Shown piece after piece: positions 1-31,353 of a stretch of 40,449 bases of DNA (its first letter is position 1; every line of letters begins with the position of its first letter). The notes beneath the pieces were generated by a model that had not been told where the DNA came from, did no database searches, and saw nothing but the letters and a program-made list of their open reading frames with translations. Origin of the DNA: an uncultured Erysipelotrichaceae bacterium (GTDB taxonomy: Bacteria > Bacillota_I > Bacilli_A > RF39 > UBA660); assembly GCA_902780395.1 (NCBI GenBank), contig CACZFH010000011.1, forward strand, positions 1-40,449, in the 5' to 3' direction. The translations under genes were made by a program, and so were the position numbers.

Positions 1-247
1 TTGCATCGACGCTGTTTGCGAATCGATAAATGAAGTTCTCAACAAACTTTTCTTTATCGATTCGATACAAACCACACGTTCTTAAATACGTCATATCTAC
101 AGCATCTTCCATTGCGGCATCTGCTGTTTCCTTTACTAAATAATAATCAAGTTCACTTCCTGTAGAGAAATTAGTTAGTACATTGATTAATAGTAAAGCA
201 ATTAAACTTAATAAGATAATTCCAACTGTTAACATTCCTTTATTCAT
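1..247 (-). CDS. TadE-like/DUF5411-like membrane-anchored protein, 3' end beyond window
   Basis: This gene starts at an ATG at 247 behind a strong GAGGAGGT and runs off the left edge, so only the first 82 residues are visible. Residues 5-25 form one hydrophobic segment (GMLTVGIILLSLIALLLINV), followed by an extracellular-looking stretch with the pattern ELDYYLVKETADAAMEDAVD. That layout (one N-terminal helix, then an acidic amphipathic region) is typical of TadE/TadG-like or minor-pilin-like proteins. I recall a similar Firmicutes family named DUF5411, but this is from memory. It lies 18 bp downstream of the large cysteine-rich protein and is probably the fourth gene of the surface operon. 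The C-terminal part is unknown. Confidence 0.75.
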   Translation of the reverse strand, partial: MNKGMLTVGIILLSLIALLLINVLTNFSTGSELDYYLVKETADAAMEDAVDMTYLRTCGLYRIDKEKFVENFIYRFANSVDA

Positions 248-265
248 ATATTAATCTACCTCCTC

Positions 266-3133
266 TTATTTAGTAAGATCTTGACATTTCGTAGATGAAT
301 GATTTTCCATATTATTACAAGCTAGAGCTTGTTCATTAGGAATTTTGCTTCCATTAGAGTTAGTAAACATTGGATTACTTCCACGGAATAATGGACTCAA
401 ATAATTAACAACACTATCAACATTATAAGATCCCAAATAATCTGTATAATTACGTTTAGCATCCTTCAATAGACGAATATTTTCTCGAGTTAGAAGAATC
501 TCATAATCTAGGTATTTATCAGAATAGATTGTATAACCCTTAGATTGAACAAATCTCATATACTCACTAGGACTAGATGTATAATCCTTATCCTTATCCA
601 AATTAGTAGCATGATATCCCCAGTTAAATCCTGGACTTCTTCCACTCTCCGTTGGAGCTGTCAAAGGCGTTCCATCAGCATTAGGGAATAAGTTGTTCAA
701 ATCAACTGAACGAATTCTTTGCTTCTGTTCATCATTACATCCACCATCTAATCTAGCATAAGCATAGAAACAAGAAACATCAATATTCCACTCAAAGAAA
801 CCAAAATTACGAGCTTTTCCTAAAATATTATAGTCAACAGATATCTCAGATTGTTTTGTTGGAATACTTGGATATTTAACACTTACAGAATCAGATCCCG
901 TACGACAATATGCTTTTTCTAAATATTCTTCATCATTATAAGCAAAACTTGTATCATTACCATATTTCTGTTTATAGTAATATAACCACCAATCAGCATT
1001 AGTTTCATGAATATCAAGTGGAGTACAGAATTTATGAGCATACTGTGTCCAAGTATCTCCTTGCTTAATATAAGATATCTCACCAGATTTATTATTAATC
1101 CAAGTACCAGAGAATCCCCATTCCGTTATATAAGTTCTTTTTCCTTCATCTGTTAATTTAGATGTATTTTTATTACATGAATAACAACCACCTGTAGAAA
1201 TAATAGTTGTATTAGCCCCTTGGGAAGCTGTATTATTTGTACATCCAATTAAATTTGTAGTATTATTAACAGTAATTTTATCAGCAGTATTATTAGCATT
1301 TTTATCAAATGGTAAATGAACAACAACATCATTACCATTATTATCATAACTATTAAGAGTTACTTCCATTGAGAAAGTTGCCGTTGTAGTATTGCAAGTA
1401 GAATATTTTTTACAAATCTCTACAGCTTGATTATAAGTATTATTATTAGCATCTATATCTCTTTGAGCTTCACCAGGATTTAAATAATCATTCTTAGAAC
1501 AATCAGCCCATTTACAAACAGCATCACATCCACAATCTGAAGAAATACCACCACCCTCAGAATTAGTTTTTGTACAAGTATGGTAACCAATTGAATTAGG
1601 ATGATCTACATAATAACGTCCATAACATTGTGGTGGGTTCCAAGAAATAACACCCTTTGAATTCATAGTATATTTTCCTTTACCATCACAACTCTTATCA
1701 CGATCCATAGTATTACCACCATATAAAGCTAGTTTCGTTCCATTTATAGAACTATTCTTATTAATAGCTGTTGTCGATGCAAGTAGTAGATCATTTTCAT
1801 ATACTTCTTTATAACATTGATCAACACAACTATCAGTATATTTACCACCATCACAACCAATTACACAATCATCAAAATCTTCATCAGGACCAGCCGCTTT
1901 ACGAATTTCACCCCAATCATGTAAACATTCAGGTACTGGCGTACAATAGTCATCTTTAACATCAGGAGGAGCATTTGGAGAAGAAGCATTACATTTTACT
2001 CGCGATGTAACTTTTACATTATATTCAAAACATAATCCAGCCGTTGTAGCAACAGGAACTCCATATTCAACAGAAACAGCTTCCTTACACGTTACACTAC
2101 ATTTAACATCACCTGCGTTTACCCTATTAGTACCTTTTCCATTAGCATCTTGTCCACCATAATTAAAATAATAAGTAAGTCCGGTATCCTTGGTTGTACT
2201 AATCTCTCCAGCTAAATAGCTCTTATTAATATATTGATATTCTTTATTATTACTAATCATAGCAGCTACATTACTATCCAATACATTAAAAGCATTACAA
2301 GTAAACTTCTTCGCCGTACTGCTTACATCAGAGAATTTATTTATATTCTTTTTAGGATTAAAACTATAATAATTATTAGAATTTTTGGCATTTGTAAAAT
2401 CATAGCAAAATTTATAATCAAAGGAATCAGGATTCCAATTTTGATAACCATTACAATTGAAGGCAGTAGCCGTAGAAGATGGATAAGAATACTTAGTAAG
2501 AACCTCTTTTTTATGAATAGCTTTACCACCATGTTCGTAATTAAGAACAATAAAGAAACTACTACCCGCTCCACAATTTTGGGTAATTAATTCATCATTA
2601 AAACCATCTGGTTCTATTTTGATAGCATAACTTACATAAGAATCTGTATTTCTGTTTTTCACCAATAAATCATCATCAAAAGTTAATACGTTATAGGTAC
2701 TAGAAATATATTGTCCAACAGCAGCACCAGTTAAAACACTTTTTGTATTATGGTCCACATCAACAATCTGAATTTCAGTAACCTTAAATTTAACTAAATC
2801 AGCTGATTTTTTAACAGCATCTGCCGCCAAACTTTTATCTAGTTTAATAACCAAATTATGACTTTCATTATCATATGTAATAATAGAACCATATCGAGAA
2901 ATAAATGTACTAATATTAGTCTCTAAATAATCACAAGTCCCATTATTATTAGCATCAAAACTAGCAAAATCATTAACAACTTCACCAGCATTTTGATTAT
3001 TATCAACACCAGAAGTATTCTCTTTTGATACATAACCATCAACTGCCCAAACACCAATTAGTGACACACCAAACAAAACCAAAAGAGCACTAACTAATAC
3101 AATACTCTTTTTCTTAAACATTTTCTTCTTCAT
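266..3133 (-). CDS. very large exported cysteine-rich protein, function unknown
   Basis: A 955-residue protein. I take the ATG at 3133, three codons inside the longest frame, because AGAGGTG sits 5-6 bases upstream; it overlaps the end of the sortase gene by 20 bp. Residues 9-30 (KSIVLVSALLVLFGVSLIGV) are a signal peptide or signal anchor. The rest looks extracellular: rich in Asn, Tyr, Ser and Gly, with more than 30 cysteines, several in close pairs (CVIGC, CGCDAVC, GGCYSC). It has no C-terminal LPxTG-like sorting signal, no hydrophobic tail and no enzyme motif that I recognise. Many cysteines outside the membrane imply disulfide bonding, unusual for a Firmicute. It lies between the sortase and a TadE-like gene, so a pilus-tip, adhesin or scaffold role is possible, but that is inference. 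Confidence 0.85.
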   Translation of the reverse strand: MKKKMFKKKSIVLVSALLVLFGVSLIGVWAVDGYVSKENTSGVDNNQNAGEVVNDFASFDANNNGTCDYLETNISTFISRYGSIITYDNESHNLVIKLDKSLAADAVKKSADLVKFKVTEIQIVDVDHNTKSVLTGAAVGQYISSTYNVLTFDDDLLVKNRNTDSYVSYAIKIEPDGFNDELITQNCGAGSSFFIVLNYEHGGKAIHKKEVLTKYSYPSSTATAFNCNGYQNWNPDSFDYKFCYDFTNAKNSNNYYSFNPKKNINKFSDVSSTAKKFTCNAFNVLDSNVAAMISNNKEYQYINKSYLAGEISTTKDTGLTYYFNYGGQDANGKGTNRVNAGDVKCSVTCKEAVSVEYGVPVATTAGLCFEYNVKVTSRVKCNASSPNAPPDVKDDYCTPVPECLHDWGEIRKAAGPDEDFDDCVIGCDGGKYTDSCVDQCYKEVYENDLLLASTTAINKNSSINGTKLALYGGNTMDRDKSCDGKGKYTMNSKGVISWNPPQCYGRYYVDHPNSIGYHTCTKTNSEGGGISSDCGCDAVCKWADCSKNDYLNPGEAQRDIDANNNTYNQAVEICKKYSTCNTTTATFSMEVTLNSYDNNGNDVVVHLPFDKNANNTADKITVNNTTNLIGCTNNTASQGANTTIISTGGCYSCNKNTSKLTDEGKRTYITEWGFSGTWINNKSGEISYIKQGDTWTQYAHKFCTPLDIHETNADWWLYYYKQKYGNDTSFAYNDEEYLEKAYCRTGSDSVSVKYPSIPTKQSEISVDYNILGKARNFGFFEWNIDVSCFYAYARLDGGCNDEQKQRIRSVDLNNLFPNADGTPLTAPTESGRSPGFNWGYHATNLDKDKDYTSSPSEYMRFVQSKGYTIYSDKYLDYEILLTRENIRLLKDAKRNYTDYLGSYNVDSVVNYLSPLFRGSNPMFTNSNGSKIPNEQALACNNMENHSSTKCQDLTK

Positions 3134-3914
3134 CCAAATCACCTCTTAAAATATTTTCTATTTCTTCATAGTTTTTATTCTTGTATACCTTGTAATTTTT
3201 CATTTTCTCACCCGTACGAAGTAGTCGACCAGTCACATATAATTGAACATGTTTATCTACTCCATAAAATCTTGTGCAAGTCACCAAAGAAGCAACACTA
3301 TCATTTTCACTAACAGCTACGTTATAACGATAAAAACTACGTTTTTTTAAATAAGAAACAAAATATTTCATATCATTTTTATCATAATCTACTCCACTTG
3401 GTAAATAAAGTTCATCTGTACCATTTAAAAAAGTCACAGCAAAAATCTTATAAACATATTCATTATCTCCTATAGTTAATTGAAAATATTCATTTTCTTT
3501 AGCAAAATCATAGTAAATAAAACTCATTAATTCTTCAAATCGAAAAAACTTATCAGAAGTTAATTTAGGAGTAGCAGATAAATTATAAACATTATGTCCC
3601 ATAATCGTAATAGCATTATGAAACTTACCATCAGATATAGACGTCCAAGTATAGCTTTTTGTACCAACAGGATAATTATAATTTTGCTCATTACTATGAA
3701 CAACAGGTAAATCTAAAGATGTACCTTGAACCCTAAGCCAACCAATTGTTTTAAAATCATTCTTTTCCTCATCAAAAGTCTGCTTTGAAACAAAATCTCC
3801 TCTAGGCTGAATCTCAAACACTTCTTTCACAAAGAAACTCTTCATTAAAAGAAACCCTGTAAGAAGAATAACAAACAAAAGATAAGGGAAAGGGAATCTC
3901 CTTCGAGATTTCAT
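3114..3914 (-). CDS. class-B-like sortase with catalytic Arg apparently replaced by Gln
   Basis: A 266-residue membrane-anchored sortase; such enzymes are transpeptidases that attach or polymerise surface proteins outside the membrane. Residues 10-28 form the N-terminal membrane anchor. The class B hallmarks are visible: GWLRVQGTSLDLPVV at 58-72, catalytic His107 in IMGHN and nucleophile Cys213 in SLVTCTRF. The third catalytic residue, normally an Arg at the start of the last strand (R-x-V-V-x-G-R-L), aligns with Gln224 (QLYVTGRL), codon CAA at 3243-3245. AAGGAGAG precedes the ATG; the upstream gene stops 15 bp before and the downstream gene overlaps by 20 bp, so the three are co-transcribed. 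No protein in the window carries an obvious sorting signal. Confidence 0.85.
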   Translation of the reverse strand: MKSRRRFPFPYLLFVILLTGFLLMKSFFVKEVFEIQPRGDFVSKQTFDEEKNDFKTIGWLRVQGTSLDLPVVHSNEQNYNYPVGTKSYTWTSISDGKFHNAITIMGHNVYNLSATPKLTSDKFFRFEELMSFIYYDFAKENEYFQLTIGDNEYVYKIFAVTFLNGTDELYLPSGVDYDKNDMKYFVSYLKKRSFYRYNVAVSENDSVASLVTCTRFYGVDKHVQLYVTGRLLRTGEKMKNYKVYKNKNYEEIENILRGDLDEEENV

Positions 3915-3929
3915 AATACCCTACTCTCC

Positions 3930-5726
3930 TTACTTAATAATATATGGACTTTCGTAAGTACCTAAGCCACTTGAAATAACAGAACCCTTTTTCATATACC
4001 CAACTACTCGAACATGGAATTGTAAATAATCAGGAATATATTCATCAAAAGGAACTCCAATATCAGTAATAGCCCCTGTACGTCTATCATTACTCTTAGA
4101 CATATTTTTTAACCAATAAGATAAAGAATTAGAATGTAACTGAGTCTGAGCACTAAATACCTCATACATATCTGGAGCACTCAAAACTGCTTTATATTTT
4201 GCAATATCTACCTCTTCACCATAAATAATCTCATTTTCATAAACCGGAACTTCAATTTCATGATTAACAAAATAAGAAGTATCAACAAAAGAACTTGCTC
4301 TATTATTAATACAATAAGCTGAACTAATTTTATCTTTAGGATTATAAACAATTGTAGGACTAGTAGGAGACGCTGTACAAACAAGTTTATCATCTAATGA
4401 ACCAATAGTCGAATCAGAAATAACTTTAGTTGTACCATCTTTTTCAACTTGTATAATACGGTATATTTCACCACCAATAGATAAATATTCTCCAGTATAA
4501 CGAGTATTAATCAAATCCCCACCTTTACCAGGTTTTACATCTTCAAAAACATAAGGATCATCTATTAAACCTTTTCCTCCAGTAATTAGTAAATCTCCTT
4601 TAACAGTCATCATTGGACGAACACCAAAATTTTGTTTAGTAGGATAAGAAAGATATTCTTTTCCTTCATCTTCATTAAAGAATAAATTTCTAGTCAAATA
4701 AGCTTCTGTTTTATTCTTAGCATTAGCCGTCCATGACATCGTATATGGTTGCATAAAATTATACAATTCACCTTCAGCTAAATTTATTTGATCAACTGAA
4801 GGAATTCCAATCTTTTTAGCTTTACCATAAGAACTGCAAGTAGTAGTAGTTAACTGTTCATCATTAAGACTCATATTACAATATTTAGTATCAACAATAC
4901 TATTTTTAGTATAATCATTCAAAATACCATAAAAATAATCTAACCATTTATCTAACTTAGTATAATTAACATTAGCAATATCTTCTGCTGCTACTAAAAC
5001 AATATTTTTATTACTATCAATTCCATATATTTGAAATAAAATATTAGATAAACGAACATAGTTATTTTCAGGTGCACCTTTATAATTCTTTGCTTCTCCA
5101 AGATCCTTTTTTACCGTACTATGTAAAGTCTGAACAACATTAACAACTCTCTTAACAACACTCTTATTTTTTAAAGCATCAAAGGCCGTATAAGTAATTT
5201 CATAAGAACCTACTTTAGCAGTATTAACCGTATTATTAACATCAACATCTTCTATTTTTAACTTTCCATCAACATTATCAATTACACTTTTAATTCCTGG
5301 ATCAGAAAAATCTTCTCCCAATCCAATTTGGATAGTATCATCACCTTCTAATTTAATAGTAGGACCTTTATGATCAATTCTAGAAGATAAAATACCACAA
5401 TCTAAATAAATATAGTAATGATAATCATTATTTTCTTTTCTAACCTTTACCCAACTCTTTTCAATAGAACAAGTTTTCTTTGTAAAAGGAATAAACAAAT
5501 CATCTTTTAAATATGACTTATGATACAAAGTATTTAAAGTAAGAGTCTTAATCCTTTCTCCAGTTGGTAATTCATTTTGATTCAATTCAAAATATCTTAC
5601 AGCAGCTTCTCTTAACTTTTTTTCATTACTCAAAAAAGATAAATAAGGGGAAACTATACAAAACCACCCAAGACAACATATAACAGCAATTACCATAATT
5701 AATTTTAATTTATTAGATATTTTCAT
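3930..5726 (-). CDS. exported pilin-like protein with DUF5011 Ig-like domain
   Basis: A 598-residue exported protein, first gene of the surface operon. The ATG at 5726 follows AGGAGGAG and is preferred over a longer frame starting six codons earlier. Residues 7-27 form one hydrophobic helix, then a pilin-like alpha stretch (REAAVRYFELNQNELPTGE) without the GFTLxE prepilin site. Residues about 125-195 fit the DUF5011 bacterial Ig-like fold: a G-L-G-E-D-F-x-D-P-G-I start, then DNVDGKL, then GSYEITYTAFD. The remainder is a long Tyr/Asn/Thr-rich domain ending in GTYESPYIIK, a tail type also seen in the remnant at 22896-23060. Sequence suggests a cell-surface or pilus-associated role; no enzymatic function is visible. 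Confidence 0.8.
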   Translation of the reverse strand: MKISNKLKLIMVIAVICCLGWFCIVSPYLSFLSNEKKLREAAVRYFELNQNELPTGERIKTLTLNTLYHKSYLKDDLFIPFTKKTCSIEKSWVKVRKENNDYHYYIYLDCGILSSRIDHKGPTIKLEGDDTIQIGLGEDFSDPGIKSVIDNVDGKLKIEDVDVNNTVNTAKVGSYEITYTAFDALKNKSVVKRVVNVVQTLHSTVKKDLGEAKNYKGAPENNYVRLSNILFQIYGIDSNKNIVLVAAEDIANVNYTKLDKWLDYFYGILNDYTKNSIVDTKYCNMSLNDEQLTTTTCSSYGKAKKIGIPSVDQINLAEGELYNFMQPYTMSWTANAKNKTEAYLTRNLFFNEDEGKEYLSYPTKQNFGVRPMMTVKGDLLITGGKGLIDDPYVFEDVKPGKGGDLINTRYTGEYLSIGGEIYRIIQVEKDGTTKVISDSTIGSLDDKLVCTASPTSPTIVYNPKDKISSAYCINNRASSFVDTSYFVNHEIEVPVYENEIIYGEEVDIAKYKAVLSAPDMYEVFSAQTQLHSNSLSYWLKNMSKSNDRRTGAITDIGVPFDEYIPDYLQFHVRVVGYMKKGSVISSGLGTYESPYIIK

Positions 5727-5848
5727 AAAACTCCTCCTAACCAAACCCCAGCTATTATTACCACTATTATCATTTTATCTTATCATCGTAAAAAAGGAAA
5801 GAACTTTTAAAAAAAATAATCTTAAAAGTCCAACATATGTAGTATATC

Positions 5849-28952: not shown

Positions 28953-28970
28953 AGACTACTAAAGTAGTCT
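28953..28970 (-). terminator. terminator overlapping the end of the prepilin peptidase gene
   Basis: An 8-bp stem AGACTACT (28953-28960 with 28963-28970) followed by a T tract on the minus strand. It spans the TAG stop at 28959-28961 and the last codons. Confidence 0.8.
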
Positions 28971-29726
28971 TAAATATTCCATAATCATCGTAACATCTAT
29001 TCTAGTAAAAAAAACAAATGTTAAACTAATTAATAAGAAAGGTCCAAAAGGAACAATTCCTTGATTTTTTTTCATCATCAAAAACAAAGAAACAGGTAAA
29101 GCCAGAACACTTCCCAAAAAAATAGTAAACATGCCTAATAAAGGATGAAGAATAATACCAAAGACAAACATCATCTTAATATCTCCTCCACCTAATGTCT
29201 CTTTTTTAAACAAATAATTACCAAGTAGCATAATTCCATACATAGCAATAAATAAAAGAAGACCCTTACCCACTGCTAACATAAAACCATATAAGCCATC
29301 ATTTAACAAAGTTAATATGAGAAAATAAACAGAAAAAAAGATTAACAATTCATCAGGAATAATATAATAACGAATATCAGAAACTGATACAATAATAAGC
29401 ATTGTAACAATACCTAAAGCAAACAATAATTCATAAGAAAAACCAAATACAAAATAACTAAGTGCAAACAAAACACCTGTAAAAAACTCCATATAAGAAG
29501 ATAAATCATCTATTTTTGCTTTACAATATCTACATTTCCCCCTTAACAACAAAAAAGAAAAAAGTGGAACCATATCTAATAAAGAAAGTGTATGATGACA
29601 ATGATCACAATAACTCCTACTAGAAATAAAATTCTCATGATTTGGAAGCCTTAATCCAACTACAGTATAAAAAGACCCCATATATAAACCTAAAACAAAA
29701 AAGATAATCAGAAAGACTATATTCAT
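28959..29726 (-). CDS. type IV prepilin peptidase (PilD/ComC)
   Basis: A 255-residue membrane aspartyl protease that cleaves, and often N-methylates, type IV prepilins. Catalytic Asp117 is in VSDIRYYIIPDE and Asp182 in LGGGDIKMM. The cytoplasmic N-terminal loop has both CxxC pairs of the methyltransferase-type zinc site (CDHCHHTL, CRYCKAKI). About seven or eight membrane segments are visible. AAGGAGG precedes the ATG, 17 bp after the pilC stop. With PilC it implies a competence-type pilus or pseudopilus. A PilB-type ATPase and canonical GFTLxE pilins are not in this window. Confidence 0.94.
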   Translation of the reverse strand: MNIVFLIIFFVLGLYMGSFYTVVGLRLPNHENFISSRSYCDHCHHTLSLLDMVPLFSFLLLRGKCRYCKAKIDDLSSYMEFFTGVLFALSYFVFGFSYELLFALGIVTMLIIVSVSDIRYYIIPDELLIFFSVYFLILTLLNDGLYGFMLAVGKGLLLFIAMYGIMLLGNYLFKKETLGGGDIKMMFVFGIILHPLLGMFTIFLGSVLALPVSLFLMMKKNQGIVPFGPFLLISLTFVFFTRIDVTMIMEYLRLL

Positions 29727-29742
29727 ATCTGTATTACCTCCT

Positions 29743-31353
29743 TTATTTTACCTGACTATACATTGAGAACATTGGTTCAACAATAGCCATTAATATAATA
29801 CCAACAACAACTGCCAAGAAACAGATAAGTAATGGTTCTACCAAACTTTTCATCTGATCAATAACGTTCTTGTGAAGTACTTGAAAGTGGGTCGCAACTT
29901 TTTCCATCATTTGACCTAATTGACCAGTACTTTCACCAGTAACAATCATTTCATAAGCCACAACTGGAATAGCCCATTCTCCTTTAAATGCCGAAGAAAT
30001 AGAATCTCCACGTCCAAGATTTTCCATAGTTTTATTAATAATTCGAATCATAACTTCATTATTAGTAATCTTCGACAATATTTCCATACTATCTGTAATA
30101 AAAACACCATGATTTAACAAAGATGCAAAAGTCTTTGTAAAGTTAGCTATTTCATTATAAATAATAATATCCTTAATAACAGGAAGATGCATTAATATAA
30201 TTTGAATAGTTTCCCTAAACTTCTGAACTTTCTTGTACGTCACAACAAATATAGTGACAACAACAGCAACAGCTAAAATCACCAAATACCAATAATTTTT
30301 AATAAAATCACTGACTGCTAGTATTGTTCTTGTTAAAACTGGTAACTCAGCACCATTTTCTTTAAACATAGATGAAAACTGTGGAACCAAATAAGTTAAC
30401 ATAAATATCAAAACACCAAAAGCAATGATTAATACAACTATTGGATATGTCATAGCAGACTTCATTTGTTTACGAGTTTGATCCATAGATGTATAATATT
30501 CACTCATATCATCCAAAATAGATGGTAAATCTCCTGTCATTTCAGCTGTTTTTATCATATTAATTAATAATTTAGGATATACTTTATCCTGCTTTATCAT
30601 AGCTTCAGACAAACTTTCACCACGTAATAATTCATAAACTAACTGATAAAAGCTCTTCTTAATTCCAGGTTTTCTAGATTGCTTAGCCAAAATACGAACT
30701 GAATCAGCAAGTGGAATACCTGCTTTTAAATAAGTAGATAATTGGGTAAGTGAAAAAGACAAATCATTGGCTTTTAATCTTGTCCCACCAATTTCAAGAT
30801 CCATAGCACTTCTTGGTTTAACATCTAAAACTTGATAATCTAAAGAAGATAAGAAGTTACGAACATCATCTGGACTTTCAGCATCAAAAAAACCATTTTC
30901 TTTTTTACCAACACCATTAATAATAGTATATTTATAAGCATTCATAGGTCTTGCGGCCTTTGCTTTCTCCCCACCTTCAGGAATCACATTTCCTGTCTCA
31001 TCAGTCGAAGGCTGAGAAAGACTTCCTGCTGGAGGAACATTATTATAATCTGGTTGCATAGAACCAGCAGCTCCAGGAATAGTATTATTATAATTAATTT
31101 CCGGTGATACCAAAGTCGTATTATCCATTACTTGAGTATTAGCACCAGCAGTAACCTGAGTCGCAATTTCTCCTGCAGAAACAACTCCAGGGTTAACCAT
31201 AGCTTGATTAGTAGCCACAGCTTCTGGTTGTACCACCCCAGGTACATTAGGATTATTAGACACTACTGTTACACCAGTATTATTAGCATCAGCTTGTCCT
31301 GCAACATGAGCTTCAGCTGGTTTATTATTTTTTTTCGAATCAAATAAACCCAT
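29743..31353 (-). CDS. pilC: type II secretion/type IV pilus inner-membrane protein PilC/GspF with N-terminal extension
   Basis: A 536-residue platform protein for pilus assembly. From about residue 140 it is a normal PilC: an N-terminal YKYTIINGVGKKENGFFDAE region, a first T2SSF domain (LTQLSTYLKAGIPLADSVRI ... TAEMTGDLPSILDDMS), a transmembrane helix, and a second T2SSF domain (FTKTFASLLNHGVFITDSME ... VTGESTGQLGQMMEKVATHF) ending in a final membrane helix. Residues 1-135 are an unusual Asn/Val/Pro/Gly-rich low-complexity stretch with no hydrophobic segment. GGAAGGG precedes the ATG and confirms that the extension is translated. It is first in an operon with the prepilin peptidase. Confidence 0.93.
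   Translation of the reverse strand: MGLFDSKKNNKPAEAHVAGQADANNTGVTVVSNNPNVPGVVQPEAVATNQAMVNPGVVSAGEIATQVTAGANTQVMDNTTLVSPEINYNNTIPGAAGSMQPDYNNVPPAGSLSQPSTDETGNVIPEGGEKAKAARPMNAYKYTIINGVGKKENGFFDAESPDDVRNFLSSLDYQVLDVKPRSAMDLEIGGTRLKANDLSFSLTQLSTYLKAGIPLADSVRILAKQSRKPGIKKSFYQLVYELLRGESLSEAMIKQDKVYPKLLINMIKTAEMTGDLPSILDDMSEYYTSMDQTRKQMKSAMTYPIVVLIIAFGVLIFMLTYLVPQFSSMFKENGAELPVLTRTILAVSDFIKNYWYLVILAVAVVVTIFVVTYKKVQKFRETIQIILMHLPVIKDIIIYNEIANFTKTFASLLNHGVFITDSMEILSKITNNEVMIRIINKTMENLGRGDSISSAFKGEWAIPVVAYEMIVTGESTGQLGQMMEKVATHFQVLHKNVIDQMKSLVEPLLICFLAVVVGIILMAIVEPMFSMYSQVK

Follow-up and report, generated by a model that had tools for sequence, protein, structure and literature searches.

A class-B-like sortase module at the 5' end of a composite Tad/T4SS locus in uncultured gut Bacilli

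Sortases are enzymes that normally weld proteins to the cell wall, and the substrate of a class B sortase has a sorting signal and is usually encoded in the operon of its enzyme. Two members of the class, Spy0129 and the pneumococcal PI-2 SrtB, act in pilus assembly. Pili built by sortases and type IV-type pili, which depend on a prepilin peptidase, are treated as separate worlds. The closest published relative of the locus described here is a predicted secretion-related operon of 8–9 genes in Roseburia, Ruminococcus and Eubacterium, which contains CpaF, PilC/GspF, DUF5411 and an InlB-like protein (PMC9523054, Fig. 5a). Both occur in gut Firmicutes and hold a CpaF-type ATPase and DUF5411 in one operon; however, the published description names no sortase, VirB4/VirD4/VirB6 or Cys-rich protein, while the present locus comprises about 22 genes and belongs to Bacilli. 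A search of the open literature gave no paper joining sortase, Tad pilus, type IV secretion and Firmicutes, and none joining PrgI, VirB4 and CpaF.

The surface module in the window and its relatives

The window is the whole 40,449-nucleotide stretch of DNA that was analysed and forms the start of contig C11 in a genome of 1.83 Mb and 73 contigs. An earlier note had described four adjacent genes, overlapping or closely set, at its beginning, and all four open reading frames were confirmed on the minus strand. They encode a surface protein (SURF; 3930..5744; 598 aa from the ATG at 5726 or 604 aa from a TTG at 5744), a class-B-like sortase (SRT; 3114..3914; 266 aa), a secreted Cys-rich protein (CYS; 266..3142; 958 aa, or 955 aa from the ATG at 3133) and a pseudopilin-like DUF5411 protein reduced here to 82 N-terminal residues (2..247; Pfam PF17424, E 1.6e-27), the gene of which is broken by the end of C11. 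The ATG at 5726, previously taken as the SURF start, is right, because a AGGAGGAG ribosome site stands in front of it. SURF and SRT are separated by 15 bp, SRT and CYS overlap by 29 bp, and 18 bp lie between CYS and DUF5411. In homologous loci the median gaps within the module are 12, −23 and 11 bp (75–81 gene pairs), with a fourth median of 18 bp, and this conservation of small gaps and overlap shows that the packing did not arise by chance. The description of the genes as one four-gene unit thus stands as far as the packing is concerned, but canonical copies of the module run on beyond four genes.

Among 84,980 genomes scanned, 181 relatives were found, and the best 78 loci were compared. 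SURF adjoins SRT in all 78, accompanied by CYS in 75, DUF5411 in 73, RcpC in 65 and CpaF in 64, and the overlap between SRT and CYS is present in 75; the genes that are absent coincide mostly with contig ends or satellite copies. The co-occurrence of the four genes in a fixed order, proposed earlier as a check, is therefore borne out. Two results had been named as refuting ones, homologues of the sortase beside ordinary LPxTG proteins and a gene order that is not conserved, and neither appeared: no LPxTG protein was found beside SRT in any homologous locus, no LPxTG pilin occurs among the neighbours of SURF, SRT, CYS and DUF5411 in these 78 loci, and the order is conserved.

All of these best 78 loci come from uncultured gut Bacilli MAGs of RF39/UBA660 type, including Candidatus Faecimonas gallistercoris, which has been assigned to the order RF39 (PMC8035907) and the family UBA660 (PMC12661832). 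With both sortases as query, SRT orthologues were detected in 24 of 145 family genomes at E < 1e-46, the next matches lying at about 1e-14, and a class-wide sample gave 8 of 395, restricted to the RF39/UBA660-type family. DUF5411 is more widespread, being present in 119 of the 145 family genomes. Gene order was the same in all fetched neighbourhoods up to the limits of the contigs, and it is conserved in 22 family genomes and 78 independent loci. VirB4 and VirD4, the T4SS part, come next in all 11 of the 11 loci that are long enough to show them.

The model of SURF (pLDDT 92.7) starts with a 52-residue N-terminal helix (residues 3–54). Behind it come a small beta region and an Ig domain, and two beta-rich domains make up the C-terminal part. 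Big_3 and Ig-like domains were matched by fold, the Ig-like domain lying at 5136..5357 on the minus strand (residues 130–203 of the 604-aa frame; Pfam PF16403, E 2.1e-15). Because the Foldseek matches cover mainly this Ig-like part, the first part of SURF can be termed pilin- or pseudopilin-like only from its modelled secondary structure. An LPTG tetrapeptide just past the N-terminal helix (5559..5570, minus strand; residues 59–62) was considered as a possible internal site only. It is conserved across 61 sequences (L59 in 60, P60 in 61, T61 in 48 and G62 in 54), but a similar LPxxxG is present in the related pseudopilin-like protein P402, which has no sortase. The tetrapeptide may thus be structural, and for this reason was rejected as a sorting site and not taken as evidence.

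CYS contains 33 cysteines, with 21 Cys columns conserved in at least 90% of sequences, and matched no Pfam family. Its C-terminal domain (about residues 770–900) is common to the large protein of sortase-free relatives, and a search of the conserved C-terminus for a substrate motif gave none. The fourth gene had been called TadE-like; Pfam assigns it to DUF5411 only and gives no TadE match, although a TadE-like role for the protein is reasonable because of its Tad context.

The canonical Tad/T4SS locus and its satellite copy

In related genomes SURF-SRT-CYS-DUF5411 forms the 5' end of a single chromosomal locus of ~30 kb and about 22 genes. The genome under study carries a second copy of the module on contig C9, with protein identities to the window copy of 58% for SURF, 46% for SRT and 42% for CYS, which breaks in the same DUF5411 gene; the C9 SURF paralogue also matches DUF6273 weakly. 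Contigs C42 and C10 each have the C-terminal half of a DUF5411 gene at one end. We infer the join of C9 to C10 from relatives, and C11 would likewise join C42.

On C10 the DUF5411 half is followed by RcpC/CpaB, a CpaF-type ATPase, two platform-sized membrane proteins, two pseudopilin-like proteins and a TadZ-sized protein. Further on lie two T4SS_pilin-like proteins, TrbL/VirB6, a PrgI-like protein, VirB4 in two genes and a SpoIID-domain protein, and after these a 258-aa protein, VirD4 and a DUF6273 pseudopilin-like protein. The ATPase is of TadA/CpaF type (T2SSE, E 1.2e-27), with FlaI and CpaF as its best PDB relatives. RcpC/CpaB has a SAF domain above the cut-off and an RcpC match just under it (4e-6). 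VirD4 matches T4SS-DNA_transf (9.7e-57) and VirB4 matches P-loop_TraG (1.4e-12), while the TrbL_4 match (3.7e-6) is just under the cut-off. The two candidate platform proteins have the place and size of TadB/TadC after the ATPase and no significant T2SSF match; all tests of a TadB/TadC identity by sequence were negative. The conserved TadZ-sized protein gave no Pfam or PDB match, and a TadZ role is suggested by its position. Since the canonical copies run straight into these Tad-pilus and T4SS genes, the module belongs to a pilus-type apparatus. The earlier proposal of a surface appendage with pilin-like subunits is to this extent upheld, but not as a stand-alone four-gene operon.

Two further features of the locus were observed. 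A conserved hydrophobic ORF of 50–90 aa, MK[AE]A[ST]GEL..., follows the TadC-like gene, ahead of the pseudopilins, in 56 of 58 loci and matches no curated family; in the present genome it is an unlisted Flp-like ORF of 56 aa on contig C10 (L021, 7959-8129), and it is likely to encode the major Flp-type pilin. VirD4 (L022, 12532-14949, and the VirD4 of relatives) ends in an acidic tail, ...DDDDFFDDFFDN, that is strongly conserved from genus to genus.

The canonical locus is flanked by dGTPase/GreA/DUF4352 and by rhodanese/RmuC, the same across genera, and this constancy identifies it as a fixed chromosomal unit and not a mobile element. No relaxase match was obtained among the cluster proteins examined. 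A mobile conjugative element was rejected in view of the fixed synteny and the lack of a relaxase among these proteins.

Of the two copies of the module, that on C9 is the canonical one, and that in the window duplicates the 5' end of the locus as a satellite. Upstream of the window copy are TetR, a 486-aa protein and MetAP, an arrangement shared with locus L088, whereas canonical genes lie upstream of the C9 copy. On C42 the DUF5411 half is followed by a gene for a 347-aa protein and by ABC transporter genes. In the sortase tree the window SRT groups with that of L088 (support 1.0), and the C9 SRT with that of L091 (0.999), which comes from the same MAG as L088; the duplication of the module is therefore older than these species. 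Tandem duplicates of the module were also seen in L089, L090 and L100.

The DUF5411 copies differ from the rest of the module in their similarity. The window fragment is 98.8% identical in DNA to the C9 copy, and in a group of cases (window 1-247; L013 12229-12475; L088, L091, L097, L101) DUF5411 copies within one genome share 98–99.6% of their DNA sequence, while the adjoining SURF, SRT and CYS copies share 57–68%. In other genomes the DUF5411 copies differ, at 69–77%. Near-identical DUF5411 copies beside diverged SURF, SRT and CYS suggest gene conversion or recombination at DUF5411, which could swap surface modules.

The four genes had also been linked to a prepilin peptidase and a PilC protein in the same window. 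The prepilin peptidase (A24; 28959..29726, minus strand; Pfam PF06750 and PF01478) is the single match in the whole genome and is located outside the Tad/T4SS locus, which leaves it as the one candidate for processing these Tad-type pilins. It would thereby be linked in function to the module. The link to PilC at 29743 is not supported, since the partner machine is the separate Tad/T4SS locus on other contigs and this PilC belongs to a GspF/ComGB-type system. The PilC/GspF protein (29743-31353; 536 aa) carries ~200 residues before its first T2SSF domain, an N-terminus longer than usual. An independent four-gene surface appendage operon served by the PilC and PilD of the window would fit the fact that the window copy ends in DUF5411, with no Tad genes after it by synteny with L088 and C42, and the prepilin peptidase would be shared by necessity. 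This explanation is nevertheless very improbable, because the same four genes start the Tad/T4SS operon in every canonical locus and the PilC is of the other type.

Chemistry and candidate substrates of the sortase

The assignment of SRT as a class-B-like sortase was substantiated. The protein has an N-terminal membrane helix at residues 9–27, matches NCBIfam SrtB (E 3.1e-13) and, as a profile, matches SrtB chains in the PDB (E 2.6e-20). Its AF2 model (pLDDT 91.8) retrieved class B sortases at Foldseek ranks 1–19, which places it in class B by fold, and the helical insertion of the class between strands 6 and 7 is present in the model as a helix at 179–192 between strands 151–164 and 207–214. 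The LxTC signature is present with Cys and His. The putative catalytic His107 (GHN; codon 3594..3596, minus strand) and Cys213 (TCTR; codon 3276..3278, minus strand) are conserved in 73 of 73 relatives, as is Thr212.

The canonical Arg of class B sortases, which stands where strand 8 begins and is catalytic, is not kept among the 73 relatives. Arg217 of C. difficile SrtB aligns in the profile alignment to Gln224 of the window SRT, in a column occupied by E/D/S/Q/N and by Arg in just two of the 73. In sequence terms the Cys-His pair is thus retained and the canonical Arg is not, and ordinary sortase chemistry is for this reason not assured. Three other basic positions are conserved: residue 125 is R or K in all relatives, residue 215, directly after the Cys, is R in 69 of 73, and residue 230 is R or K in all. 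The altered Arg position, and a module without a visible substrate motif, could mean that transpeptidase activity has been lost or changed, SRT having a structural or chaperone-like role in the machine instead, or carrying out simple proteolysis. This is considered unlikely, as the invariance of Cys213, His107 and Thr212 argues for retained catalysis and R125 and R215 are candidate substitutes for the Arg.

The absence of a sorting motif with a hydrophobic tail, reported earlier for the visible C-termini, extends to SURF and CYS in the window and in the relatives read, and to the DUF5411 C-terminus obtained from C42 and C10. A genome-wide search with PF00746 and TIGR03063 gave no match above the cut-off. 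Elsewhere in the genome, at least four further sortases adjoin proteins ending in PNTG/PDTG and a hydrophobic stretch (contigs C49, C31, C27 and C38; L006, L007, L009 and L205).

Sortases can act on substrates encoded far away, and SRT might be an ordinary anchoring enzyme whose PxTG-type substrates lie elsewhere in the genome, with its place in the Tad/T4SS locus reflecting co-regulation only. The PNTG/PDTG proteins would provide such substrates; however, those found adjoin the four other sortases. In addition, the SRT gene always stands next to SURF in the best 78 loci, and family members that have no SURF also have no SRT. This explanation is regarded as rather doubtful.

The partnership of SRT and SURF was examined further in 13 DUF5411-positive genomes without SRT. 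Where these gave enough sequence, the Tad/T4SS genes are present and SURF and SRT are both absent, so SURF and SRT are gained or lost together while the CYS-type protein and DUF5411 stay. In such loci (L189–L199) the place of SURF and SRT is taken by a secreted protein of 208–263 aa that has a membrane helix and a basic tail at its C-terminus. The large Cys-rich protein that follows it has only the C-terminal domain in common with CYS; a thioester domain considered in this protein (AYCVDPG, L189) gave no Pfam match. In one locus, L060 (4215-5024), a degenerate satellite sortase has both His and Cys replaced, and SURF is absent with an RcpC-like gene in its place. In L162 a SURF-CYS pair lacks a sortase gene of its own, and a complete copy follows it. 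The joint gain and loss, together with the single case of L060 and with L162 as an exception, make SURF most likely the partner of SRT.

The identity of the module and its position in the locus are established by these results. The explanation favoured, with moderate confidence, is that the window contains a satellite 5' surface module of a composite Tad/T4SS locus, in which SRT would covalently fix SURF and/or CYS without a classical sorting signal. The sole prepilin peptidase would mature the Flp-like and DUF5411 pilins, which the CpaF-type ATPase and platform proteins would then assemble. CYS and SURF would form the exposed part, CYS docking through its conserved C-terminal domain. SRT, held in the membrane beside SURF and CYS, would link either or both to peptidoglycan, or to each other, with no need of a hydrophobic C-terminal tail. 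From the satellite copy the same machine, which may serve adhesion, secretion or contact with other cells, would receive alternative surface subunits in trans. More tentatively, the locus may encode a hybrid Tad/T4SS machine in which a class-B-like sortase, with its Arg relocated or missing, covalently joins pilin-like or Cys-rich subunits that have no C-terminal sorting signal. The sortase may work together with the pilin-like subunits, as suggested earlier.

Comparison with known systems

In many genera of abundant, uncultured gut bacteria with small genomes, a dedicated sortase is a fixed part of a Tad-type operon, and Tad and T4SS genes share a single fixed chromosomal unit. SRT may join pilus-like parts in a manner not yet described, and if the hybrid-machine reading is true, a single appendage would combine helical type IV-type pili with sortase chemistry. 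The locus is a testable candidate for the contact of RF39-type bacteria with hosts or other microbes.

When compared with the Tad (Flp, type IVc) pilus, the locus has in common a CpaF/TadA ATPase and RcpC/CpaB, and it has candidates for further Tad components in a small putative Flp-like pilin, pseudopilin-like proteins, two membrane proteins of platform size and a protein of TadZ size. It differs in that TadB/C and TadZ are assigned by position only, in having no prepilin peptidase of its own, and in containing a sortase and T4SS genes. With Gram-positive T4SS it shares VirD4 (1e-56), the VirB4 P-loop, TrbL_4, T4SS pilin matches and a SpoIID-domain candidate cell-wall enzyme, while no relaxase is present among the genes examined, the synteny is fixed and chromosomal, and Tad genes are embedded in the locus. 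Sortase-assembled pili have LPxTG pilins beside the sortase, unlike the present module. SRT shares with the class B sortases (SrtB of C. difficile, C. perfringens and S. aureus, Spy0129 and PI-2 SrtB) the fold, the LxTC signature with Cys and His, the helix between strands 6 and 7 and the N-terminal membrane anchor. It departs from them at the canonical Arg position, which is not Arg, and in an operon without a sorting-signal substrate. These class B sortases are encoded in iron-uptake or LPxTG-pilus operons, whereas the SRT gene lies in a Tad/T4SS locus.
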